Source: Thiothrix subterranea
GTDB lineage: Bacteria; Pseudomonadota; Gammaproteobacteria; Thiotrichales; Thiotrichaceae
DNA length: 64,000 bases
Reading direction: 5' to 3'
NCBI RefSeq assembly: GCF_030930995.1
Contig: NZ_CP133217.1
Coordinates: 868,001-932,000, forward strand
Position numbers and translations under genes: made by a program. Positions 9,308-32,158 of the stretch are shown here, piece after piece. The notes under the pieces were generated by a model. That model saw only the letters and a program-made list of their open reading frames with translations. It was not told where the DNA came from and ran no database searches. Every line of letters starts with the position of its first letter. Within the stretch, counting starts at the first letter, position 1.

Positions 9308-11808
9308 CAGAAAACTCTTCACACCACTACATCCCGTATGTCGCTGTGCCGCTAGATCCATTATCCAATGATGCGGAAACCTTAGGCGATGATTTCCAGC
9401 GTTACCTTTCCTACCACTTGGGGCGTTTCCAAGGTTGCCAGCCGGTGTATTTGTATCAAGCATTGGCGTACACCTTGCGCGACCGTTTAATGGTGAACTG
9501 GCGCAAAACGTGGGGCGAATACCTGCAACCCGGTCGCCGCCGCGCTTACTACATGTCACTGGAATTTTTGATTGGGCGTTCGCTCGGCAATAACCTGCTG
9601 AATCTGGACATTTGCGAACCCACCAAAAGTGCCTTGTTGAACTATTGCACCACGATGGAAGAAGTATCCTCGCAAGAGCCGGATGCGGGCTTGGGCAATG
9701 GTGGTTTGGGGCGTTTGGCTGCGTGTTTTATGGACAGTTGCGCGACGCTGGGCTTGCCGGTGGTGGGTTACGGGATTCGCTACGAATACGGCATGTTCCG
9801 CCAGCACATTGAAAAAGGCTACCAAGTTGAAGATCCCGACCATTGGTTGCGCGACCCGAATCCGTGGGAAGTGGAACGTGCTGAATACAGCCAAAAAGTG
9901 CAATTTGGCGGTTACACCGAACATTTCTTGGATCACAGCGGCAAGCAGCGCGTGCGCTGGGTCGGTACGAATGACGTGCTCGCCGTGCCGTTTGATATGC
10001 CGATTTCGGGCTACAAAAACGACACCGTGAACACCTTGCGCTTGTGGAAAGCCACCGCGACCGATGAATTCAACCTCGACGAATTCAACGCAGGCAGTTA
10101 CACCGAAGCTGTCGAAGCGAAGAATCACGCCGAACACATTTCAATGGTGCTGTACCCTAATGACAGCAGCGAAAACGGTAAGGAATTGCGCTTACGCCAG
10201 CAATATTTCCTCGCTTCTGCCAGTTTGAAAGACGCGATTCGATTGTGGGAACGGCAGGGCAATCACGATTACAGCCAGTTTGCGGCTGAACATGTGTTCC
10301 AAATGAACGACACGCACCCGACGATTGCGGTCGCGGAATTAATGCGCATTTTGATGGATGACAAAGGCTTGGGCTGGGAAGAGGCGTGGGCAATTACGTC
10401 CAACTGCATGGCGTATACCAACCACACCTTGCTGCCGGAAGCTTTGGAACGTTGGGCAGTGCATTTGTTCGCCAAATTATTGCCACGTTTGCTGGAAATT
10501 ATCTACGAGATTAATGCGCGTTTCTTGCGTCAAGTCGCGATGAAATGGCCGGGCGATACCGAACGTCAGCGCCGTATGTCGATCATTGAAGAAGGTGGTT
10601 CGCAACAAGTACGCATGGCTTGGCTGGCGATTGTGGGCAGTTTCTCGGTGAACGGCGTGGCGGCGTTGCATTCGCAATTGCTGGTGGATGGGCTGTTCCA
10701 CGATTTCTACGAACTCTGGCCGGACAAATTCAATAATAAAACCAATGGTGTCACCCCACGGCGTTGGGTGGCACACGCTAACCCCGGCATGACCGCGCTA
10801 ATCAGCGAGCACATTGGTAAAGACTGGGTACGTGATTTGAGCCAATTGGAAAAGCTCAAGCCGCTGGCAGCCCCCGAATACACCGCGTTTCATGCGCAAT
10901 GGCAGGCGGTGAAATACGCCAACAAGCAGCGCTTAGCCGCATTGGTGAAAAAGGAATGCGGGGTAGATTTCAACCCGAATGCTTTGTTCGATGTGCAAGT
11001 GAAACGGATTCACGAATACAAACGCCAGTTACTGAATCTGCTGCATGTGGTGCATTTGTATCGCCGCATCAAACTCGGCAAATTGGATAACTGGGCGGAT
11101 CGTTGTGTGCTGATTGGCGGGAAAGCCGCGCCCGGTTACGCGATGGCAAAGCGCATTATCAAGCTCATCAACAGCGTGGCGGAAGTGGTCAATAACGACC
11201 CCGATGTGGATGGGCGCTTGAAAGTTGCCTTCATCCCCAACTATCGGGTGTCGAGCATGGAGATTATTGCGCCTGCCGCGAATTTGTCCGAACAAATTTC
11301 CACCGCAGGCAAGGAAGCATCCGGCACGGGCAATATGAAGTTCATGATGAACGGCGCATTGACCATCGGTACGTATGACGGCGCGAATATCGAAATTTTG
11401 GAAGCGGTCGGTGAGCCTAACTTCTTCCTATTCGGCTTACGGGCGGATGATGTGGAGGAGTTGCGCCACTGCTACCGCCCTTGGCATTACGTCGAGCAGG
11501 ATGAGGATTTGCACGGGGTGATTGAGCTGATTCGCTGTGGTCACTTCAATATGACCGAACCGGGTATTTTCGACATGGTGCTGGATGCGATCCTCAGCCC
11601 GCACGACCCGTGGATGACACTGGCAGATTTCCGCAGCTACGTGAATGCGCAGGAACAGGTATCGGTGGCCTGGCAAGATCAGGAACATTGGACGCGCATG
11701 AGTATTCTGAATACGGCGAGCAGCGGGTTCTTCTCCACTGACCGCACGATGGCGGAATATAACCGCGAGATTTGGAAGCTGAAGCCGGGGAATGGCAACG
11801 GGGATTAA
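9304..11808 (+). CDS. glgP: Glycogen/starch/alpha-glucan phosphorylase
   Basis: GT35 phosphorylase that releases glucose 1-phosphate from glycogen ends using pyridoxal phosphate. With the ATG at 9304 it has 834 residues, close to E. coli GlgP (815). [26 protein letters not shown] and the C-terminal [20 protein letters not shown], with the PLP-binding Lys679, are all present. An earlier in-frame ATG at 9208 lies inside glgA and adds an unconserved stretch, so I rejected it. Its 3' end overlaps the convergent ATPase gene by 4 bases. Confidence 0.96.
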
Positions 11809-23434: not shown

Positions 23435-24088
23435 TCAGCACAAGGCACGCGCGTTCTGTACCCAGCCTTCTGGTGGCTGGTAGCGTTCGGTGCCGATAAT
23501 GCGTTGAATATGCTGCATATCATCCGTGGTAAATTCAGCCACTTGGCGGTAGGTGACAATTCCTAACGCCTTTAAGTGGCTGGCTAATTGTTGGCTAATG
23601 CCTTGAATTCGGGTCAGATCGTCGTACCTGCCTGCCAGGGGTGGTGGCATATCGGTTATTGATGCGCAAAGTGATTCCGCTGTTAAGGGGGCAGTTTGTA
23701 TTGTTACCAATGCTTGTTGATGACGCTGCCATTCACGCCGTTCATCAGCCAAGATTTTTTCTTGCTGGTGGTATTGTTCCAGCAAGACTTGGTATTCCCG
23801 CCGGGTTTTTTCCAAGGTTTTCCTGAGTTCTAGGAATTCACCGTATTCGCTTTCCGCTGGTGGTGTGCCGATTTTGCGTAAGACTTTTTCCAATTGGCGA
23901 GTTTTACTGCGCAGATACGCATTGTCGGCGGTCGCATCCTGATAGTTGCGCCGCAAGCCCGCCAATTCGGTGAGGCACTGCGCTGATTCACGTGCATAGT
24001 GCCATTTTGCCACCCAACCGCCCACCCATACGCCGATCAACAGCGCAACGCTCAGCAATAGCACCATGTGGAGAGCGAGATAAAACAT
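23435..24088 (-). CDS. Membrane coiled-coil protein with C-terminal helix-hairpin-helix domain
   Basis: A 217-residue protein: one membrane helix at residues 1-28, a long coiled coil from about 35 to 130, then a C-terminal domain (about 150-205) containing DDLTRIQGISQQLASHLKA, the HhH-like fold seen at the end of many small membrane proteins. It is the last gene of the minus-strand GTPase cluster, 5 bases after the OmpA-like gene. Its N-terminus (MFYL, Leu/Ala-rich, G-W-x-G) and the following C-x(n)-LRR region resemble the protein at 31328, so the two may be paralogues. Confidence 0.6.
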   Translation of the reverse strand: MFYLALHMVLLLSVALLIGVWVGGWVAKWHYARESAQCLTELAGLRRNYQDATADNAYLRSKTRQLEKVLRKIGTPPAESEYGEFLELRKTLEKTRREYQVLLEQYHQQEKILADERREWQRHQQALVTIQTAPLTAESLCASITDMPPPLAGRYDDLTRIQGISQQLASHLKALGIVTYRQVAEFTTDDMQHIQRIIGTERYQPPEGWVQNARALC

Positions 24089-24093
24089 CTTGG

Positions 24094-24831
24094 CTATTGC
24101 TCCAACACAGTAATGTCAATCCGCCGATTGCGCGTCGACTCGGCAGTACTTTGCTCGACGATGGGGCGGGTAGAACCGTAGCCCTTGGCACGCACTTGTT
24201 TGGCTTCAATGCCTTGCGATAATAAGTAATTGCGGATCACTTCGGCACGCGCTTGACTGACCGTCAAATTGCCTAACGCGGTGCCTTCATGGTCGGTGTG
24301 CGCGGATACTTCAATGATCATGGCAGGCTGTTGGCGCAATTCCACCAGCACTTGCTCCAAGGCGGCGACGGCGTTGTTGTTTAATTCTGCTCTGGAATAC
24401 TTGAATTGAATCGCGCTTAAGTCGATTTTCTCGATAGGGTAACGCTTCGGCGGCGTATAAAAACCGGGCATGGGTAGGGGGGGAACCTCCACATTATCCA
24501 CTTGTGCGGAAGCCGTGCTGACAGGAATCAGACGGTTTTCAACGTGACGTACCCCATAAACACTGCTGACGATTTGCGCTAAGCGTTGCCCTTCGGTTTC
24601 ACCCGCAATGGTTCCGGTTAAAACACCGTCACGCCCATTAAAATGAACCAAATGCGTAGGCAGACCCGATTCCGCTAAGGCTTGGCGGGTACGTTGCAAT
24701 AAATCCGTTTCAATTGCGGGTTGCTGTACCAGTAAACTCAACAGGGTTAAGACCGTGACCGCTACTAACGCCAATAATGCAGCAAACGGCATGACTTGCT
24801 GTTTGCTCACGGTGAACGCAGAAAAAGCCAT
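24094..24831 (-). CDS. BON and OmpA domain envelope protein
   Basis: A 245-residue protein anchored by one N-terminal helix (about residues 12-35). A BON-like region follows (GLPTHLVHFNGRDGVLTGT, then VYGVRHVENRL), and an OmpA C-terminal peptidoglycan-binding domain occupies the last 110 residues (VSAHTDHEGTALGNLTVSQAR, then AKGYGSTRPI). It probably links the inner membrane to peptidoglycan. I chose the ATG at 24831 because GGGAG lies just upstream; an ATG at 24861 is less likely. It belongs to the GTPase cluster. Confidence 0.8.
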   Translation of the reverse strand: MAFSAFTVSKQQVMPFAALLALVAVTVLTLLSLLVQQPAIETDLLQRTRQALAESGLPTHLVHFNGRDGVLTGTIAGETEGQRLAQIVSSVYGVRHVENRLIPVSTASAQVDNVEVPPLPMPGFYTPPKRYPIEKIDLSAIQFKYSRAELNNNAVAALEQVLVELRQQPAMIIEVSAHTDHEGTALGNLTVSQARAEVIRNYLLSQGIEAKQVRAKGYGSTRPIVEQSTAESTRNRRIDITVLEQ

Positions 24832-24992
24832 TCGACACTCCCAATGTATTACTCGAACCATAGAATATAGACCAATGGTTGAGCCTTGAGAGTAGAAGCA
24901 TCGCGATATATTCGCCAGTGACAGCAGGACAGAGGGGGATAAGCGGCAGACTAGCAGGATAAGCTGCTAATTTATAAAGACTAGCGGTTTAA

Positions 24993-26087
24993 TCACGTAA
25001 TGAAAGATAAAATCTCACGGGCTTCTTGGCGTTGCTGTTCACCGCCTTCGACCAAGACATCTTGCAAAATATCAGCCGCTCCGACGGAATCCCGTAAATC
25101 CAAATACGCACGGGCAATGTCAAGCTTGAGCGCCGCATCCGGGTTTTCATCCACGGCTGGCATGACACTGACCGTCGCTGGCACATCAGCCATTACGGGT
25201 GTTGATACCTCCGGCTGCTTATCAGGGGCTGTCATTACCGGCATGGCGGGTTCGACTGCTACCGCACTAGCAACGGCGGCTGGCACGGTTTCACGTTTGC
25301 GCCGTAATAACCAAAGCAGCGGCAAGGTCAACAGTGCCAATAATCCCAGTAAGATCCACGGTAAATTGCCTGAACCCTTGGCCTTGGTTTCTGCAACCGC
25401 TGCGGCTGCACGAATCTGTTGCAGATCGTTCTGCAATACTTCGTTCTCACGCTGGGTTGTCGCCAGTTGTTCTTCCAAGGTGGTATTGGCAGCTTTGCTC
25501 GCGGCTAAGGCGGTTTCGGCCTCATCTAAGCGCTGTTGCAAGGTATTATCAACAGGAACTGGAACTGGAACTGGAACTGGAACAGGAGTAGGTGCGGCGC
25601 TGGCAGCGGGAGATTTACCGGTCGCTGCGTCATTCACCATTTCCTGTAAGGCTGTATTTTCCTCTTCAAGTATGGTGATGGTTTCTTTGAGTTCCGTGAC
25701 CTGTGCTGTTAACGCTTGCAGTTTTTCTTGAAGGGCTGGGTTGACACCAGCAGCCTCGGCAGGTTTAGGCGCGGGCGGTTTTAGGTCAGGGATGTCAGCA
25801 GGGTCGGGTAACTGAAGCGTTTTGCCTACGATCAGGCTGTTAACATTTTCACTGCGAAAAGCCTGCGGATTACGCTTGAGGATTTCCCGCATAATCGCTT
25901 GATGGTTCCCGTAATCGGGGTATTTTTCCGCGACGATTTTACCCAAGCTGTTGCCGGGCTGGATTTCCCAGGTACTATCCGCCGCGAAGACTGTGCCAGA
26001 CCAACACATGCCTGCCAGTGACACAGGCAGCAACACCTGCAACAAACGGGTGCGTACCAATGCGTGAAAATGGGTCAGTTTTTTCAT
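24993..26087 (-). CDS. FimV-like LysM protein
   Basis: A 364-residue protein with a signal peptide (cleavage near residue 35), a LysM/FimV N-terminal domain (about 38-92, EIQPGNSLGKIVAEKYPDY), a coiled coil (about 110-150), a Val-Pro repeat linker, a second coiled coil, one membrane helix (about 235-255) and a short C-terminal FimV-type motif (ALKLDIARAYLDL...ADILQDVL). FimV organises polar type IV pilus and secretion machinery at the peptidoglycan. This version is much shorter than Pseudomonas FimV (over 900). It lies next to the GTPase and Roadblock genes. Confidence 0.8.
   Translation of the reverse strand: MKKLTHFHALVRTRLLQVLLPVSLAGMCWSGTVFAADSTWEIQPGNSLGKIVAEKYPDYGNHQAIMREILKRNPQAFRSENVNSLIVGKTLQLPDPADIPDLKPPAPKPAEAAGVNPALQEKLQALTAQVTELKETITILEEENTALQEMVNDAATGKSPAASAAPTPVPVPVPVPVPVDNTLQQRLDEAETALAASKAANTTLEEQLATTQRENEVLQNDLQQIRAAAAVAETKAKGSGNLPWILLGLLALLTLPLLWLLRRKRETVPAAVASAVAVEPAMPVMTAPDKQPEVSTPVMADVPATVSVMPAVDENPDAALKLDIARAYLDLRDSVGAADILQDVLVEGGEQQRQEAREILSFIT
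25555..25584. repeat. Hexanucleotide tandem repeat (GGAACT)n in the FimV-like gene
   Basis: Four perfect copies of GGAACT (25555-25578) plus one imperfect copy encode a Val-Pro ladder on the minus strand. Six-base units keep the frame, so copy-number change would only lengthen or shorten the linker. Confidence 0.75.
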
Positions 26088-26089
26088 GG

Positions 26090-26839
26090 TTAGTTAACCA
26101 GTGTATCCATCAGGTCAATCATAAATTCGGTATCTTCCTGTTCCTGTATTTCCCAGCCTTGCAAACCCATGCTGGCTAGGACACCTTGGCCTTTAAGGTC
26201 AGTATTCATGGCGGGCAACAGGCGGCGTAACTGTTGATGCTGTTCCTGCAAACGCGGGCTTGCCAACAATACATGGCGAATCACGTGTATTTCGCTGCGA
26301 ATCAATTCACGCAACTGGCGCTGAATCATGCCGGAAAGTGTTTGAAATGCATCCCGCAGAAAAAATCCAACGTCTGCCTGACCTTGCAATAAGCGTTTAG
26401 CCACTAACACATAGGTATCCACCGTGTGCGTCTGGACATTTTGAGCCGACAAATCCGCAGGCTCTAACATAATCATCGCAATCAGGTTCACATCTGGGTC
26501 ATCGGTTGCTGCAATCCGAATACCGGGCGTTAAATCTTCAATACGTTGCACAGGCGAATCAACCGCCACCGCAATAATCGCCTCATCCGACTTGTGCAAC
26601 GGTGTCGCAATGGCCGTAAAGCCTTTTTCGCGTACCAACATTGCTGCATCAAAGGGGTTGGCGTAAATTAGGTCGATGCCATCGTTCTGAATCACTGCCC
26701 GTTGGCTGGCGAAATCATCAAACAAACTCACGTGGATCGGCACACCCAATTGGCGTTGCAACCACGTATTAAAAATATACCAACCGGCAATCTGAGCGGG
26801 TGGAAAGTCGGGGCTGACGGTCATGACATAAGGCTGCAT
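26090..26839 (-). CDS. PhnD-like binding protein without signal peptide
   Basis: A 249-residue protein with the fold of phosphate/phosphonate-binding proteins: VSPDFPPAQIAGWYIF, DLIYANPFDAAML, TPGIRIAATDDPD and LLQGQADVGFFLRDAF match PhnD-type blocks. There is no signal peptide, so it should be cytoplasmic and not a transport protein. In sensor kinases similar domains sense ligands, and here a regulatory role in the GTPase cluster is an inference. It starts 1 base after the PAS gene and ends 2 bases before the FimV-like gene. Confidence 0.7.
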   Translation of the reverse strand: MQPYVMTVSPDFPPAQIAGWYIFNTWLQRQLGVPIHVSLFDDFASQRAVIQNDGIDLIYANPFDAAMLVREKGFTAIATPLHKSDEAIIAVAVDSPVQRIEDLTPGIRIAATDDPDVNLIAMIMLEPADLSAQNVQTHTVDTYVLVAKRLLQGQADVGFFLRDAFQTLSGMIQRQLRELIRSEIHVIRHVLLASPRLQEQHQQLRRLLPAMNTDLKGQGVLASMGLQGWEIQEQEDTEFMIDLMDTLVN

Positions 26840-26840
26840 T

Positions 26841-27326
26841 TCAGACCTCCGCTTGCTTTAATTGAGCGTAATACGCAATGCAGGCATCAACTTGGGTACG
26901 CGAAGGCTTACGCCTTACCGAGGTACAACTGACTGCATTCCCCGCTCGCACATTGAGGATAATGGTGGCATACACCCAATAATAACGCCCATCTTTGCAT
27001 AAATTTTTAACATAGCCATGCCATTTTTCGCCTCGCGCTACGGTTTCCCATGCATCCTTAAAAATGGCTTTCGGCATATCAGGATGTCGCAAAATGTAAT
27101 GTGGCTGCCCAATCAACTCCGCTTCGGTATACCCAGACATTTCCACAAATGCCTGATTACAATGGGTAATAATGCCACGCAGATCCGTGCGCGAAACAAT
27201 CAGCTTACCTTCTGGAAAAGGCGTTTCCTCATCTTTAACCAAAACACAACGCGAATTGCCATCGTAATAGCATAGCCGATGTTCTGTATAAGGTTCCCTC
27301 ACGTCCTTGTTTGTCATATCTTCCAT
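26841..27326 (-). CDS. Single PAS-domain protein
   Basis: A 161-residue soluble protein consisting mainly of one PAS domain (about 40-140). LIVSRTDLRGIITHCNQAFVEMSGY, GQPHYILRHPDMP and WHGYVKNLCKDGRYYWVYA follow the Aer-type PAS pattern, which often binds FAD to sense redox or oxygen. No output domain is fused, so it must signal through a partner, most likely a neighbour in this operon. A GGAG Shine-Dalgarno supports the ATG at 27326. Confidence 0.82.
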   Translation of the reverse strand: MEDMTNKDVREPYTEHRLCYYDGNSRCVLVKDEETPFPEGKLIVSRTDLRGIITHCNQAFVEMSGYTEAELIGQPHYILRHPDMPKAIFKDAWETVARGEKWHGYVKNLCKDGRYYWVYATIILNVRAGNAVSCTSVRRKPSRTQVDACIAYYAQLKQAEV

Positions 27327-27428
27327 CGCATCACTCCGTGTTGGCTTCCCGCAGTCTGAGACGGCACTGTGATAGACCGCCTTGCATTGATTGAGACAAC
27401 TTTATTATTGTGACATTGAGCGTAGCTA

Positions 27429-27791
27429 CTAGATGATTTTGCCGATGTTTTCAGCGGCACGCTTCACATCCAGGAAAATCAAGCCAAGGCGGGCATTCGG
27501 TTTTGCCAATACCGTCACCACCGCTTCATTACCCGCGTGTGTCATCAGAATATAGCCTCTCGCACCTTTGATCAGCACTTGTTCCAATGCACCACGTGCT
27601 AATTCTTCCGCCGTCCGGTCGCCCAGTGACAACATGGCGGCACTCATCGCACCCACCCGGTCTTCATCCATACCACCAGGCAACATAGAAGCCATCATCA
27701 AGCCATCCGTCGACAAAACCGCAGACGCTTCGATGTCCGCAGACGAACCGTTCAGGTCACTAAGAATGGAGTTCAGCATTTCAGAGCGCAT
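27429..27791 (-). CDS. Roadblock/LC7-domain protein (MglB-like)
   Basis: A 120-residue Roadblock/LC7 protein. SADIEASAVLSTDGLMMASMLP and LEQVLIKGARGYILMTHAGNEAVVTVLA are characteristic. Such proteins dimerise and act as GTPase-activating or scaffolding partners of small Ras-like GTPases, as MglB does for MglA. A GTPase gene is encoded two genes upstream in the same operon. An AAGGAG Shine-Dalgarno precedes the ATG. Confidence 0.85.
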   Translation of the reverse strand: MRSEMLNSILSDLNGSSADIEASAVLSTDGLMMASMLPGGMDEDRVGAMSAAMLSLGDRTAEELARGALEQVLIKGARGYILMTHAGNEAVVTVLAKPNARLGLIFLDVKRAAENIGKII

Positions 27792-27829
27792 GTCGTTTTT
27801 TCTCCTTGGTTATCAATAGTTAATTCAAT

Positions 27830-28477
27830 TTATACAGGTATTTCAGTATTGCCGTAACGCATTTCCAGCGCCCACACCAACCGTTTAAAATGCGGCTGGT
27901 TGAATTGGGGAATGCCACCAATAATCAGGGTAAACCGGTTCTGACCAATATACAGCGGCCAAAAACCGACTTCACTGTTACCACTCGCATCCACCAGACC
28001 CCACGCCCGTTGGCGATAGCCCAGATTGCCGTGCAACAATTCTTTGTGGCGGGCATACACCGCCGTCAAGTTAGCACTCAATGCTGCCAGCTCTTCCGCT
28101 GCTTCATGGGTAAAACCGGCACTGCCTAAATACAGCCCCCGGCTTTCTGCCAAAATTGCTTTACCTTCGTCAGACAGGGTACGCAACAACTTGGGCAATA
28201 AACGCTCTAAGGTTTCGTCTGGCGCAGATTCACGTTGTTCCTGCCCCACAATCATCCCCGCTTCCTGCATCCAGTGGACAAACTCCAAGGCACGCTTTTT
28301 CTTGTAGCCACTTAGCTCACAGGCAACATCAACCGTAAACAGCGGGGTAACAGCTTCCTGAAACAAGCGGTGCAAAAACAACCGCCCTGATTCGGCGGCA
28401 TTGTCCTGTACCGCATAGTAAGTACCCGCTGGGGTAACACCCAGATGCAAGTTTTCTGTGAGTATGTACTCGCTCAT
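27830..28477 (-). CDS. Hypothetical protein of the GTPase cluster
   Basis: A 215-residue soluble protein that I cannot assign. The middle contains a winged-helix-like stretch (FTVDVACELSGYKKKRALEFVHWMQEAGM), and the C-terminal half (WPLYIGQNRFTLIIGGIP) has the alternating pattern of a Roadblock-like sheet. Its start overlaps the GTPase stop, so it is very likely a GTPase partner. Function is unknown. Confidence 0.55.
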   Translation of the reverse strand: MSEYILTENLHLGVTPAGTYYAVQDNAAESGRLFLHRLFQEAVTPLFTVDVACELSGYKKKRALEFVHWMQEAGMIVGQEQRESAPDETLERLLPKLLRTLSDEGKAILAESRGLYLGSAGFTHEAAEELAALSANLTAVYARHKELLHGNLGYRQRAWGLVDASGNSEVGFWPLYIGQNRFTLIIGGIPQFNQPHFKRLVWALEMRYGNTEIPV

Positions 28478-29022
28478 CAGTTAGTCACTCCCGGATCCAA
28501 TGAGAACAACAGCGCCTGAATTAGCATGGTGACATCTTTGTGACTACGCGCATCCACCTCAAAGACTGGCGCTTGCAATGACAGCGATTCCAGATAGCGC
28601 CGGTATTCGGGCAACCCCGGCTGGCGGTGTAAATCCATGCGCGTTACCCCCACCACCATTTGCTGCTTTTCGATAAAATCACGGAAAGCATTGGTGTAAA
28701 AACGGATGTCTTGAAACGGATCCTTACGGGTATTATCCAATAACAAGATCAAGCCGATCCCGCCCTTGGTGAGAATATCCCACATGAAATCAAAGCGTTC
28801 CTGACCGGGTGTGCCATACAAATGCACGCGCTCGTTGTCACTTAAACGAATCAAACCATAATCCATTGCCACGGTGGTTTGTGGCTTGCGACTTTTGGTC
28901 ATGTCCGAAGCATATTCGTCGGTCGCGACCGGTTTTATATCACTGATAGCAGCAATCGCAGTGGTTTTGCCTGCACCAACCGGGCCGGTAAAAATAATTT
29001 TGCGGTTAATCATTTTGCTCAT
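28477..29022 (-). CDS. Small Ras-like GTPase (MglA/SofG-like)
   Basis: A 181-residue GTPase. The P-loop GPVGAGKT is at residues 13-20, the switch I threonine is in TVAMDYG (50-56), switch II is GTPGQERF (70-77), and the base-recognition motif is TRMD (127-130) instead of NKxD. This set matches the bacterial small GTPases of the MglA/Rab-like group, which control polarity and motility. The neighbours are a Roadblock protein, a FimV-like protein and, divergently, a bactofilin. It is cytoplasmic. The effector is unknown. Confidence 0.87.
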   Translation of the reverse strand: MSKMINRKIIFTGPVGAGKTTAIAAISDIKPVATDEYASDMTKSRKPQTTVAMDYGLIRLSDNERVHLYGTPGQERFDFMWDILTKGGIGLILLLDNTRKDPFQDIRFYTNAFRDFIEKQQMVVGVTRMDLHRQPGLPEYRRYLESLSLQAPVFEVDARSHKDVTMLIQALLFSLDPGVTN

Positions 29023-29026
29023 AAAG

Positions 29027-30394
29027 CTACTTCGTCCCCCCTCCCAACAAACGCTTCAATAAGCGCGAGAAGAAGCCCCGGTTTTCTTGCTTCGGCTGCT
29101 CTTTTTCCCGACTTTTGAGTTTGTTCTGATCCATTTCAAACAGGTTAAGTGCATTGGCTGCCGTGTGGAATGCAAACACATAGCGTTGCGGGATAGCCAA
29201 GGCGTTAGCAATATCCAGTGAGCTTGCCGGGCGTTGGTTCCACAAAGCCGCGATGCGCATAATGTGGGGGAACTGCTCAAGGCGCGTCAGGTTGGGCCAG
29301 TATTTCAAAGAAATGGTCTGCTCAATCTCAACACCACGTCCTAAGCGGCCTCGTGCCGTCAGCAAACTGCTTACCCACACAAAGGCTTCCAGATCCAACA
29401 AGGCATCAGCATTCTGCATAGCGTGCTGTTCCAAGCCTTCAAGTTCTGCACTGTTGGGTATATGTAGCGCAATTTGACCCGTTTGTACGGGATTATTGCA
29501 CAAGACGCGGAATTCTTCTGACCGGGTGTCCAATGTGCAGTAGGCAAGCCCCTGTTGCGGCATCAATAATGCGTAATCTTGTGGTGATAACTTGAGATAA
29601 ACGGTTTGTTGCGTGTCTCTGGCGACGCGAATCGCTTCTAAAATCGTACTCAATACGTAATTTTCAGGGGTAAACAATGCCACGTCAGCCGCTGACTGCA
29701 CATCGTCCTGTTCACCGCACAGCGCTTTCCAGCGATTTTCTGCCTCTTCTTGCGACAGCGAATCATCAACGGGGCGGTCAACCTCTTCCAAGGGGATATC
29801 CGCTTCCGCCGGGTCAAACACGGTAATAGGAATATCCGCCTCCGGCATGGCAGGTGCGGCTTCCTCTTCAGGCTCTTCTTCGTCGGGTAAATTAATTATC
29901 AGCGAACGTGATTTTCTGTCCGAGCGCTCCGTGTGCGTCGGTATCCCAAACGGTTGTGGCAGGTCGCGAAAATGCACTTCCGCCTGCTTCACTGCGGGTT
30001 TTTCCGCTGCAACTTGGGTTGTGGAATTGACGGAAGGGCGCTGTGCCTTGTCGCTCTCTGGCGTTAAATTAGCCGCCAGTTCTTGCACCCTGTCAGCCGC
30101 ATCGGTTAAGGCGCGTGATGTTAAGGGTTTGGGAATCCAGATGCAGTTTGGCAATTCAGCCGGGTGTACCGACAAAATAATGCCGGGTTTGCGTAGCGCT
30201 GCCCGTTGTTGCCAATCTTCCTTGGCATCAGGGTGATCGTGATCCAGAATAAAAGCTTCTGCCTCTGCTTCTGGCACGACGCGAAATAAATTACGCCCCG
30301 CACCTGAGAAAAAAAACTCAAGTATCGCTCGGTTGTGCGGGCTAATTGCCAATAGCGCAACTTTCAAGGGGCCTGTTTTAGAATGTTTCAGCAT
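29027..30394 (-). CDS. Hypothetical regulator-like protein of the GTPase cluster
   Basis: A 455-residue soluble protein. Residues 10-100 (LKVALLAISPHNRAILEFFF... then GIILSVHPAELPNCIWIPKPL) resemble a degenerate receiver domain with the terminal KP motif. A long acidic low-complexity stretch (about 170-215) follows, then a globular C-terminal domain including LARLYW-like helices and a basic tail (FFSRLLKRLLGG). No catalytic motif is seen. It is 4 bases upstream of the GTPase gene, so it is probably an effector or scaffold. A confident family name is not possible. Confidence 0.5.
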   Translation of the reverse strand: MLKHSKTGPLKVALLAISPHNRAILEFFFSGAGRNLFRVVPEAEAEAFILDHDHPDAKEDWQQRAALRKPGIILSVHPAELPNCIWIPKPLTSRALTDAADRVQELAANLTPESDKAQRPSVNSTTQVAAEKPAVKQAEVHFRDLPQPFGIPTHTERSDRKSRSLIINLPDEEEPEEEAAPAMPEADIPITVFDPAEADIPLEEVDRPVDDSLSQEEAENRWKALCGEQDDVQSAADVALFTPENYVLSTILEAIRVARDTQQTVYLKLSPQDYALLMPQQGLAYCTLDTRSEEFRVLCNNPVQTGQIALHIPNSAELEGLEQHAMQNADALLDLEAFVWVSSLLTARGRLGRGVEIEQTISLKYWPNLTRLEQFPHIMRIAALWNQRPASSLDIANALAIPQRYVFAFHTAANALNLFEMDQNKLKSREKEQPKQENRGFFSRLLKRLLGGGTK

Positions 30395-30421
30395 AAATCC
30401 AGCCTGCTTATCGTTATTTTT

Positions 30422-31141
30422 TTACCATTGTTCGGATTCCTGCTGCTTCTCTAGCCACAGGGCAGAAACCTCACGCCCCGCCTCCTGCATCTGGTTTACC
30501 ATCGTATTCAGCCCATCCTTGCTGCGCGTGTACTGATAAATGTTCACAAGCTCCTGCTCCATTGCCTCGTCGGTGTTGCCTGCGAGAACCTCGGCTTCTA
30601 ACAACTCGCGGGCGGTATCAATCTGACCATACTCCAAACAGGCGAAAACTTCTTCCATCACGTTAGAATATTGGGCGATTTCTTGCACACGTTCCTGTTT
30701 CAACAGTTTGATCACGGAGGCTTCCTGCCCCGTAGACAAAACAGAACCTTCTCGCCATTGTTGGTGTTCGCTGTGGTGAGTTGCGGAATCTTCCAACCAT
30801 TGCTGGAAAAATAGCTCATCTGATCGGCTTAAATCATCTTTCACCAAGTGAAATAAGCGTTCACGTAACAGCGAACCGGCGTTGTCTAAGGCTAGAAATA
30901 GATCCTGAAGGCTGCCTGCCAGACGGCTGCGTAGCGATTCGTGCTGTGCCAACAGGATGCGTTGCGTGTGTGCGCGTAAATCGTGCGGGTAACGGCGAAT
31001 GTGGTGAGATAAAAAACGCCACACACCCAAAAAATCGTGGTGCTGATGCAACCGGAGCTGACGCTCAGACGCAATACTAAAGACCAAGGGCAATTCCGGC
31101 GGGGGCTGGGTTTTCCCGCTGCGCAACAATTTTCCTAACAT
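30422..31141 (-). CDS. Hypothetical protein with FimV/TPR-like C-terminus
   Basis: A 239-residue soluble helical protein, first gene of the minus-strand cluster. The C-terminal region (DTARELLEAEVLAGNTDEAMEQELVNIY) resembles the tetratrico-like C-terminal part of FimV proteins. The N-terminal two thirds, rich in His, Arg and Leu, is not recognised. I chose the ATG at 31141; an upstream TTG at 31168 is possible, and neither has a good Shine-Dalgarno. Its promoter lies in the AT-rich divergent spacer. Confidence 0.5.
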   Translation of the reverse strand: MLGKLLRSGKTQPPPELPLVFSIASERQLRLHQHHDFLGVWRFLSHHIRRYPHDLRAHTQRILLAQHESLRSRLAGSLQDLFLALDNAGSLLRERLFHLVKDDLSRSDELFFQQWLEDSATHHSEHQQWREGSVLSTGQEASVIKLLKQERVQEIAQYSNVMEEVFACLEYGQIDTARELLEAEVLAGNTDEAMEQELVNIYQYTRSKDGLNTMVNQMQEAGREVSALWLEKQQESEQW

Positions 31142-31327
31142 AATTTCAGAGTCACACCAAACACTCAACAGTGGTTTATAGTATATTCTATCAGGATACT
31201 AGAAGACATTTTAATCATAGTCTATAAGCAGCGCGGAAAAATGTTTTTCTGATGAAAGGTGAAGCTCTCTAGTAGCATGATGCTGCTACAATAGGGCAGT
31301 CTGGTGATTTAAGGCAAGAGGACGCCG
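31142..31327. promoter_or_regulatory. Divergent promoter region with operator-like palindrome
   Basis: An AT-rich spacer between the GTPase cluster and the bactofilin pair. On the + strand TACAAT (31287-31292) is a good -10, and the near-palindrome TAGTAGCAT-G-ATGCTGCTA (31270-31288) overlaps its start, as expected of an operator. On the minus strand TATACT near 31175 could be the -10 for the cluster. One regulator could control both directions. Confidence 0.4.
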
Positions 31328-31723
31328 ATGTTTTACCTAACAATACAAATTGCTTTTTTGTTGGCTCTAGCTATTGCGAGCGGATTAGCGATTGGGTGGT
31401 GGGCTGGCAATAAAACGGCTCAATCACACACATTAACTCAGGAAACGGCCGATAATCCTTTTGATGCGCGGTTTCGCTTGGAACAGTGTCACCGTGACAA
31501 TGCCACGTTGCGCCGCGATCTGAAAGAAGCGGAGGAACGTGCTGAAAAATTAACGGCACGCTTGGAAAACAGCACGCAACAGGACGATGACGTCTTGGAG
31601 CGCTTGGAAACCTATGAAATCCGCATACAAGCCTTGTTAGAGGACTTGCAAATGCGGGATGACACCATTGCCGTGTTGGAAAGTGAGCTGGAACAAATGC
31701 GGGCGCGTAGTAATAACACATGA
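31328..31723 (+). CDS. Membrane-anchored coiled-coil protein
   Basis: A 131-residue protein with one N-terminal membrane helix (about residues 3-25) and a long charged coiled coil (about 50-128). An AGAGG Shine-Dalgarno precedes the ATG. The N-terminal pattern resembles the protein at 23435-24088 at the far end of the cluster, but here the HhH domain is missing. It sits 75 bases before the bactofilin gene and could anchor bactofilin polymers to the membrane. Confidence 0.6.
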   Translation: MFYLTIQIAFLLALAIASGLAIGWWAGNKTAQSHTLTQETADNPFDARFRLEQCHRDNATLRRDLKEAEERAEKLTARLENSTQQDDDVLERLETYEIRIQALLEDLQMRDDTIAVLESELEQMRARSNNT

Positions 31724-31798
31724 TGTTTCGCTAGACACCTGCTAGTATCCTTGACCTAATTACTTTGTTTTGATGAACTCAATAAATAAGACAAATAC

Positions 31799-32158
31799 AT
31801 GACAACCAGAAACACCTCTTCAGCTTCGTTGCTTGAAAAAGACCTGGAAATTATTGGCAACATTGCCTTTCAGAATAATTTGTACATTCACGGAAAAGTG
31901 AGTGGCAATATTGCTGCCCCTATGGATTCGCGTGCAGCCCTGTATATTCAGGGGGATAGCGAAGTGAACGGGGAAATACGTGCGCCACTCATTATTGTTT
32001 CGGGCGCTATATCCGGCGATATATTTGCTTCACGCCGTATTTCCCTGAAATCCACCGCCAAGATTAATGGCAATATTCACTACGTGGAAATACAGATGGA
32101 TGAAGGTGCTGAAGTTAATGGCGTACTTACCAGCATGAACAGTATTTCTGATGCTTAA
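31799..32158 (+). CDS. Bactofilin (polymer-forming cytoskeletal protein)
   Basis: A 119-residue bactofilin. The short N-terminal tail, followed by the repetitive beta-helix core (DLEIIGNIAFQNNLYIHGKV, then ALYIQGDSEVNGEIRAP and KINGNIHYVEIQMDEGAEVNG), is diagnostic. Bactofilins form nucleotide-free filaments that set cell shape or polar assemblies. In Myxococcus one bactofilin (BacP) acts with the small GTPase SofG to place pilus motors, and a small GTPase is encoded 2.8 kb away on the opposite strand here. Confidence 0.9.
   Translation: MTTRNTSSASLLEKDLEIIGNIAFQNNLYIHGKVSGNIAAPMDSRAALYIQGDSEVNGEIRAPLIIVSGAISGDIFASRRISLKSTAKINGNIHYVEIQMDEGAEVNGVLTSMNSISDA

Follow-up and report, generated by a model that had tools for sequence, protein, structure and literature searches.

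It is poorly understood how a chain of bacterial cells distinguishes its base from its tip, or one of its walls from the next, and a gene cluster in Thiothrix subterranea raises the question of whether a small GTPase system could mark such places. The window analysed is a 64,000-nucleotide stretch of DNA (GCF_030930995.1, contig NZ_CP133217.1, positions 868,001–932,000 of the forward strand) in a 4.4 Mb genome of two contigs, and the locus occupies window positions 23435–32158. Ten minus-strand open reading frames (ORFs) run from 31168 down to 23435, separated by 27, 4, −1, 38, 102, 1, 2, 131, and 5 bases, and are designated A, R, G, 2, b, P, N, F, O, and h (Table 1). Two plus-strand ORFs, c and K, lie at 31328–31723 and 31799–32158. 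A preliminary description, made from the letters of the sequence and an ORF list, proposed a polarity or pilus-placement system. The ORF list places the ten packed genes, the divergent bactofilin, and the coiled-coil gene as in that description. Domain searches also agree with its GTPase with a P-loop and its Roadblock, PAS, PhnD-like, OmpA, FimV-like, and bactofilin proteins, with the BON and FimV_core matches falling under their cut-offs. The locus is real, conserved, and richer than could be seen at that stage. We give a probability of about 0.5 to the reading that it encodes a GTPase switch of the Group 3 MglA type held on a scaffold that is anchored in the cell wall, a spatial switch for filamentous, attached growth.

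The conservation of the core was determined from relatives of the GTPase. A contig scan confirmed at least 492 of them, and the best 80 loci were kept, a set biased to near relatives. Core genes were counted by profile searches, and 53 of the 80 loci have at least 4.5 kb of upstream and 6.5 kb of downstream DNA. The order A-R-G-2-b is present in 51 of these 53 loci, and A-R-G-2-b-P-N in 42. The two five-gene misses (L005 and L060) are script artefacts with the ORFs present, and the remaining nine loci lack the PAS and PhnD-like genes. Gene A was found in 66 of the 68 related loci with enough upstream DNA and gene b in all 58 with enough downstream DNA; gene b is 72–100% identical across the related loci with a tblastn match. 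In a less biased sample of 369 genomes from the class, 40 carry gene 2. The 39 besides the window's own gave 40 loci, and 26 of the 40 loci hold A, R, the GTPase, 2, and b. Gene 2 is also present in 40 of 40 genomes drawn from Thiotrichales (seven genera, one family). These data identify the core as an ordered operon of beta- and gamma-proteobacteria. The preliminary description had proposed a search of other genomes for the gene order; the order is kept, and in two distant lineages it includes the bactofilin and FimV-like genes.

Some loci depart from this layout. In a Neisseria gonorrhoeae record (L091), the counterparts of the pseudo-receiver, the GTPase, and gene 2 are each split among frames, whereas the Roadblock gene has an intact frame, and the locus is probably decayed. 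A Halothiobacillus locus has a 157-residue protein with no Pfam match between the two Roadblock genes (L039:11261–11731), and three loci of the same group (L030–L032) have an extra PhnD-like gene there. In Candidatus Thiothrix singaporensis (L005:8540–10528), the pseudo-receiver and GTPase form one ORF with ambiguous residues and the motif GTSGQ, perhaps an assembly error.

The new part of the system is an extension by a bactofilin and a short FimV-like protein, found in one clade of the operon. Among the 53 loci, 27 have both a bactofilin gene upstream and a FimV-like gene downstream, 24 have neither, and two are discordant. Locus L010, with the bactofilin only, is a true exception; L005 is an artefact, listed with FimV only but containing the bactofilin. 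The bactofilin gene is divergent in Thiotrichales. In the beta-clade loci, those of Sphaerotilus and Leptothrix among them, it opens the operon and the FimV-like gene closes it; in a gamma-proteobacterial metagenome-assembled genome (MAG; L034), the FimV-like gene points toward the operon. The bactofilins of six extended loci score 74.6–91.6 bits. The FimV-like protein of the window exceeds the FimV_Cterm cut-off and reaches 29.7 bits for FimV_core (4.1e-7; cut-off 43.45). A signal peptide, a LysM-like core, a coiled coil, and a transmembrane segment are seen in it by eye. FimV_core is over its cut-off in six of seven beta-clade FimV-like proteins and FimV_Cterm in three of seven; two gamma-proteobacterial proteins are over the FimV_Cterm cut-off. 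A full-length FimV (1026-residue frame) is encoded elsewhere in the T. subterranea genome. In the class sample, both loci from the window's own family have the bactofilin and FimV-like genes flanking the core. The extension flanks none of the 38 gene-2 loci outside that family, 24 of which have the full five-gene core (19 uncut); 13 of the 38 end at contig ends, and a FimV-like match in L114 (25 bits) and a distant bactofilin in L108 (42 bits) were left uncounted as weak.

The distribution of the extension was traced in the family of Sphaerotilus natans, where gene 2 matched in 8 of 100 genomes, with a full score only in S. natans and G432. G432 carries the whole nine-gene form, and its nearest named locus is that of a Sphaerotilus MAG (L057; 85.8% over 12.7 kb summed) compared to 76–84% for the other Sphaerotilus loci. 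Four of the six weak gene-2 matches were read, and none of the four has a bactofilin or a FimV-like gene. Three of them, Burkholderiaceae loci (L136, L137, and L138), have a divergent operon of permuted order with Roadblock, PAS, and PhnD-like genes ahead of the rest, and the fourth, L139, shows only A and 2. A tree of the GTPase, gene 2, and gene b was computed (69 rows, quick method, midpoint root), and its deepest split is formed by two divergent Burkholderiaceae loci. The tree unites the extended loci in a single clade with support 99, whose 27 rows comprise 25 with the extension and 2 lacking it; given this root, the clade is nested among unextended loci. The clade contains 8 beta-clade rows (support 100), 18 Thiotrichales rows (support 99), and one gamma-proteobacterial MAG; its exceptions are L058, without both genes, and L010, without one. 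The single nested clade shows that the extension was probably acquired once. Transfer between Thiotrichales and the Sphaerotilus-Leptothrix lineage is likely because the extension is rare in the family of Sphaerotilus.

The same tree bears on the idea that inheritance alone keeps the bactofilin and FimV-like genes beside the GTPase operon, with which they would share no function. One recruitment is enough on the tree, and there are only two independent pairs. Nevertheless, both genes were kept in the two lineages despite the change in bactofilin orientation, co-directional in the beta clade and divergent in Thiotrichales, and they are present or absent jointly with one true exception (L010) in 53 loci. 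We consider inheritance without shared function quite improbable.

Every extended locus in these samples comes from Thiotrichales, from the Sphaerotilus-Leptothrix lineage, or from one of a few MAGs whose shape is unknown; the named carriers outside Thiotrichales are Sphaerotilus and Leptothrix. Leptothrix forms sheathed filaments. The available text of PMC11087309 reports sheathed filaments for Sphaerotilus microaerophilus, and that of PMC3368414 describes a sheath, rosettes, and gliding gonidia in Thiothrix nivea. Because the shape of several carriers, which are MAGs, is unknown and about two lineages are involved in all, the link to filaments is a lead and not a result. Tentatively, and in our view rather doubtfully, the extended operon was assembled once, was passed horizontally between Thiotrichales and the Sphaerotilus-Leptothrix lineage, and marks the cell chain at its cross-walls or at the one end that attaches and forms the holdfast.

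The GTPase was assigned by its motifs and its neighbours. It is 97% identical to its closest named relative, from Thiothrix caldifontis. The window protein has the P-loop GPVGAGKTT, G2 KPQTT, G3 YGTPGQ, G4 VTRMD without the lysine, and G5 DAR. Among 27 aligned relatives, the lysine place in G4 holds R in 14, Q in 12, and H in one, and all 27 have D-x-R in G5. The shared GTPGQ of these relatives is circular evidence, as they were chosen by that motif; L005 alone reads GTSGQ. The Group 1 features are absent, with T49-T50 in place of the G2 arginine and GTPGQ in place of TVPGQ. The P-loop, GTPGQ, and G2 threonine without arginine are common to MglA Groups 2–5, and the G4 and G5 traits also fit Group 2. 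The neighbours (a receiver/winged-helix protein and one or two MglB proteins) and the beta/gamma-proteobacterial taxon separate Group 3 from Group 2, and both are found here. Among 30 of 128 tblastn records, a copy from Neisseria, a genus with Group 3 MglA, shares 57.6% identity with the GTPase, and the Streptomyces, Thermus, and Deinococcus copies share less than 50%. Together, motifs, neighbours, and taxon fit MglA Group 3, with the motifs alone leaving Groups 2 and 3 unseparated. The preliminary description drew an analogy to Myxococcus. The GTPase, Roadblock, and bactofilin parts are indeed present, but the analogy is looser than stated, since the GTPase motifs are those of Groups 2–3 and not of the Myxococcus Group 1.

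A second MglA-like GTPase is encoded at about 3.55 Mb of the same genome (L084:8413–9681; 294 residues), with an N-terminal extension that appears receiver-like by eye. It is followed by a 121-residue partner that looks Roadblock-like by eye and has no match to Pfam, NCBIfam, or our own Roadblock profile. About 7 kb away from this GTPase, the genome encodes a paralogue of the OmpA/BON protein (L084:16981–17868).

The proteins around the GTPase were compared with known folds. The product of gene R has a predicted receiver fold followed by a C-terminal mixed alpha/beta domain ending in helices. Its VIA rows span residues 5–116, and its whole model gave no Foldseek match at 0.001 or better. In 27 relatives, D53 and K89-P90 are invariant and D51 is present in 25, but the conserved acidic pair at strand 1 is missing, with Asp at position 16 in five and at position 17 in none. 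On the predicted fold, gene R is a pseudo-receiver that lacks the full residue set of a response regulator. An amphipathic C-terminal spacing pattern, picked after the tails had been viewed, occurs in 71 of 74 relatives compared to 1.2 expected, and this conserved pattern suggests membrane binding. Gene 2, a 215-residue unknown in the preliminary description, is predicted to have a Roadblock fold and by this prediction is a second Roadblock protein beside gene b. For gene A, Pfam gives no match with the window protein alone. Its 28 aligned relatives match TPR_19 in 12 cases and FimV_Cterm in 5, and the best PDB match is a designed TPR protein (4.3e-7) compared to 0.0043 for FimV (4mal). A relationship of gene A to FimV was considered and rejected on these scores, general TPR models scoring better. 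Its start is probably at 31141, and not at the listed TTG, because several relatives have ORFs whose first codon is the corresponding Met.

The receiver domain opens a different reading, suggested for Group 3 in the main text of PMC4316618, in which the GTPase and Roadblock proteins would signal to transcription by controlling a DNA-binding receiver/winged-helix protein. The predicted receiver fold and the C-terminal domain ending in helices fit this idea, as do the Phyre2 winged-helix prediction in that paper and the sensor-like PAS and PhnD proteins. Set against it are the missing acidic pair of the receiver, the tail pattern pointing to the membrane, and the membrane and wall proteins of the extended operon, which are ill-suited to a plain regulator. 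A role in transcription is, on balance, unlikely.

The PAS and PhnD-like genes are kept or lost together. Both are present in 46 of the 58 loci with enough downstream DNA and both are absent in the other 12, and on the tree six of six independent pairs agree (sign test, p = 0.031). The PhnD-like protein does not reach the PhnD equivalog model (12.6 of 261.1 bits). Judged by hydropathy only, none of 54 related ORFs, a set that includes fragments and over-long frames, has a hydrophobic N-terminal stretch typical of an export signal; N-terminal hydropathy was at most 1.17 in these compared to 1.35–3.07 in 26 FimV-like controls. By eye, the window protein begins like that of L002. These values indicate that the PhnD-like protein is probably cytosolic.

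These components can be combined in a model of a spatial switch. The two Roadblock proteins would set the nucleotide state of the GTPase, and the PAS and cytosolic PhnD-like proteins would report to it on redox state, energy, or a small molecule. Held to the membrane by its tail, the pseudo-receiver would serve as a scaffold or as an effector. Where the extension is present, polymers of bactofilin, together with the FimV-like protein that would bind the wall, may confine the switch to one site, such as the pole, the septum, or the filament base, where it would recruit or permit an envelope machine for pili, holdfast, sheath synthesis, or wall synthesis. The parts point to a switch, paired inputs, a membrane-tethered pseudo-receiver, and two anchors, as would be expected of a spatial landmark system. 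As the thing positioned, a pilus, a holdfast, a sheath, and wall synthesis all fit.

Several points weigh against the spatial switch. No localisation, interaction, phenotype, or other experiment on the locus was found in a literature search that left most subscription journals outside its range. It may be that the receiver/winged-helix protein regulates transcription, the role proposed for it in the main text of PMC4316618. The gene R tails beat same-composition shuffles by helical moment (p ≤ 0.05) in only 17 of 74 relatives, and their spacing pattern was chosen post hoc. The extension rests on three changes, with only two independent pairs for bactofilin versus FimV; with so few evolutionary events, co-function of the two lacks statistical support beyond shared inheritance. 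The core is not indivisible, since no GTPase was found beside gene 2 in 9 of the 40 class-sample loci (L126–L130, L132, L109, L115, and L118).

The anchors could also work without any readout of polarity. The bactofilin and short FimV would then organise local synthesis during wall, septum, or sheath morphogenesis, with the GTPase acting only as a gate. Bactofilins function in wall growth elsewhere (PMC13393453, available text), and the restriction of the extended form to the lineages named above is in keeping with this. By eye, however, no wall or sheath synthesis gene appears in the frequent neighbour clusters, which are unannotated. Leucothrix-type relatives, moreover, are filamentous yet unsheathed. 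Morphogenesis of this kind seems to us somewhat unlikely.

The spatial switch was also proposed in a pilus-specific form, in which the GTPase sets type IV pili at the pole through FimV and bactofilin, as in Myxococcus. The T. subterranea genome has eight PilT-family matches, four over the cut-off and none within the window, in addition to the full-length FimV. The one experimental hint at function is indirect: the available text of PMC11112851 reports that mutation of an orphan mglB alters soft-agar spreading in Snodgrassella, which has a Group 3 system, and the authors ascribe this to type IV pili. Co-occurrence was tested in the 369 genomes with relatedness ignored. PilM is found in 38 of 40 genomes with gene 2 compared to 243 of 329 without it (p = 0.0015, odds ratio 6.7). 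FlhA is found in 35 of 40 compared to 161 of 329 (p = 2.5e-6, odds ratio 7.3); the FlhA count, made at E 1e-100, includes low-scoring matches (196 genomes, of which 186 reach the curated cut-off), the three of the window's own family among them. A bactofilin anywhere in the genome accompanies gene 2 in 32 of 40 compared to 201 of 329 (p = 0.023). FlhA therefore co-occurs with gene 2 at least as strongly as PilM, and the pilus-specific form was rejected for want of any pilus preference. By eye, no pilus gene is present in the 40 commonest neighbour clusters, which are unannotated, and the core occurs with neither FimV nor bactofilin in 24 of the 53 loci and, in the class sample, in 24 of the 38 from outside the family. 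Pilus placement is improbable. Of the initial proposal, a polarity role fits the parts and is plausible, whereas a role in pili specifically is unsupported. The FlhA-like protein of the T. subterranea genome (E 3e-177) is, judging by this E-value, probably under the flagellar cut-off and would belong to an export apparatus of unspecified kind.

Table 1. Genes of the T. subterranea locus, with coordinates in the 64,000-nucleotide window.
Gene	Product	Position	Strand	Remarks
A	TPR-like protein	30422–31141	−	ORF listed from TTG 31168; probable start ATG 31141
R	Pseudo-receiver protein, 455 residues	29027–30394	−	Disordered linker, C-terminal domain, basic amphipathic tail
G	MglA-family small GTPase (Group 3 type)	28477–29022	−	ATP_bind_1 1.1e-11, Ras 4.4e-7
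2	215-residue protein	27830–28477	−	N-terminal helical domain (putatively winged-helix-like) and Roadblock domain, predicted fold
b	Roadblock/LC7 protein (MglB-like)	27429–27791	−	PF03259 5.7e-16
P	Single PAS-domain protein	26841–27326	−	PAS_3 8.5e-18
N	PhnD-like solute-binding fold	26090–26839	−	PF12974 5.7e-41, 140.9 bits
F	Short FimV/HubP-like protein, 364 residues	24993–26087	−	FimV_Cterm 4.4e-12, 45.8 bits (cut-off 30.65)
O	BON and OmpA-domain protein	24094–24861	−	OmpA 2.7e-18; putative peptidoglycan binding
h	Coiled-coil protein, hydrophobic N terminus	23435–24088	−
c	Coiled-coil protein, hydrophobic N terminus, divergent	31328–31723	+
K	Bactofilin, divergent	31799–32158	+	PF04519 1.9e-24, 86.2 bits (cut-off 27.9)

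The remaining genes of the locus are more restricted. Of the 80 related loci, 19 have the OmpA/BON protein and 28 have the two coiled-coil proteins, and every one of these belongs to the Thiotrichales group. The BON match of gene O (1.4e-4, 22.5 bits) is under the Pfam cut-off of 27. Genes h and c (23435–24088 and 31328–31723) lie at opposite ends of the locus and have homologous N termini (BLASTP, 5e-8). An Rfam scan of the window gave no match. ARAGORN reported one tRNA in the window (11510–11608), of unknown type with a four-base anticodon.

The joint presence of a bactofilin and a short FimV in two lineages of sheathed filaments is the part most worth following. The operon may help filaments distinguish one place on the cell from another, and if it is a filament polarity module, it would direct where the filament, the sheath, and the dispersal cells are formed. 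As a compact candidate, it unites a switch, two regulators, two sensors, and wall-anchored scaffolds, and one lineage (Sphaerotilus and Leptothrix) is culturable. MglA Group 3, a family of almost no known function, gains a set of partners to test.

The combination had been thought undescribed. This holds in part: the GTPase, MglB, and receiver/winged-helix protein are known for Group 3 from the main text of PMC4316618, whereas the PAS, PhnD-like, and bactofilin components are not in that text, where a term search gave PAS 0 times, phosphonate 0 times, and bactofilin once, in a reference. Within a search that left out most subscription journals, no description of the extended operon was found beyond the Group 3 accounts in the available text of PMC4316618 and PMC11112851, and no published work was found that joins MglA, bactofilin, and FimV, or Roadblock, GTPase, FimV, and a PAS domain.

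Four known systems invite comparison. FimV/HubP landmarks share with gene F the FimV C-terminal domain over its cut-off and, by eye, the signal peptide, LysM-like core, and transmembrane segment; gene F differs in its length of 364 residues and its core score under the cut-off, and the long FimV is encoded as well. In the actinobacterial conservon CvnA-D, a Roadblock protein adjoins a small, winged-helix-like DUF742 protein and a GTPase that carries DAR (L093). In contrast, the locus here has no histidine kinase, has PAS and PhnD-like proteins, and has its second Roadblock domain fused to a helical domain. In Myxococcus, MglA/MglB works with SofG and the bactofilin BacP; SofG and a paper on a bactofilin are cited in the main text of PMC4316618. 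The MglA-family GTPase, Roadblock partner, and bactofilin are common to both, a resemblance in the way they would work, but the Group 1 arginine and TVPGQ are absent here and the parts lie in one locus with a short FimV, a pseudo-receiver, and PAS and PhnD-like proteins. MglA Group 3 is described in the main text of PMC4316618 as a GTPase of beta- and gamma-proteobacteria with one or two MglB proteins and a receiver/winged-helix protein as neighbours. The locus agrees in GTPGQ in G3, the missing G2 arginine and G4 lysine, DAR in G5, the adjoining receiver/winged-helix protein, GTPase, and two Roadblock proteins, and the taxon. To this it adds a conserved TPR-like first gene and PAS and PhnD-like genes, and in one clade a bactofilin and a short FimV.

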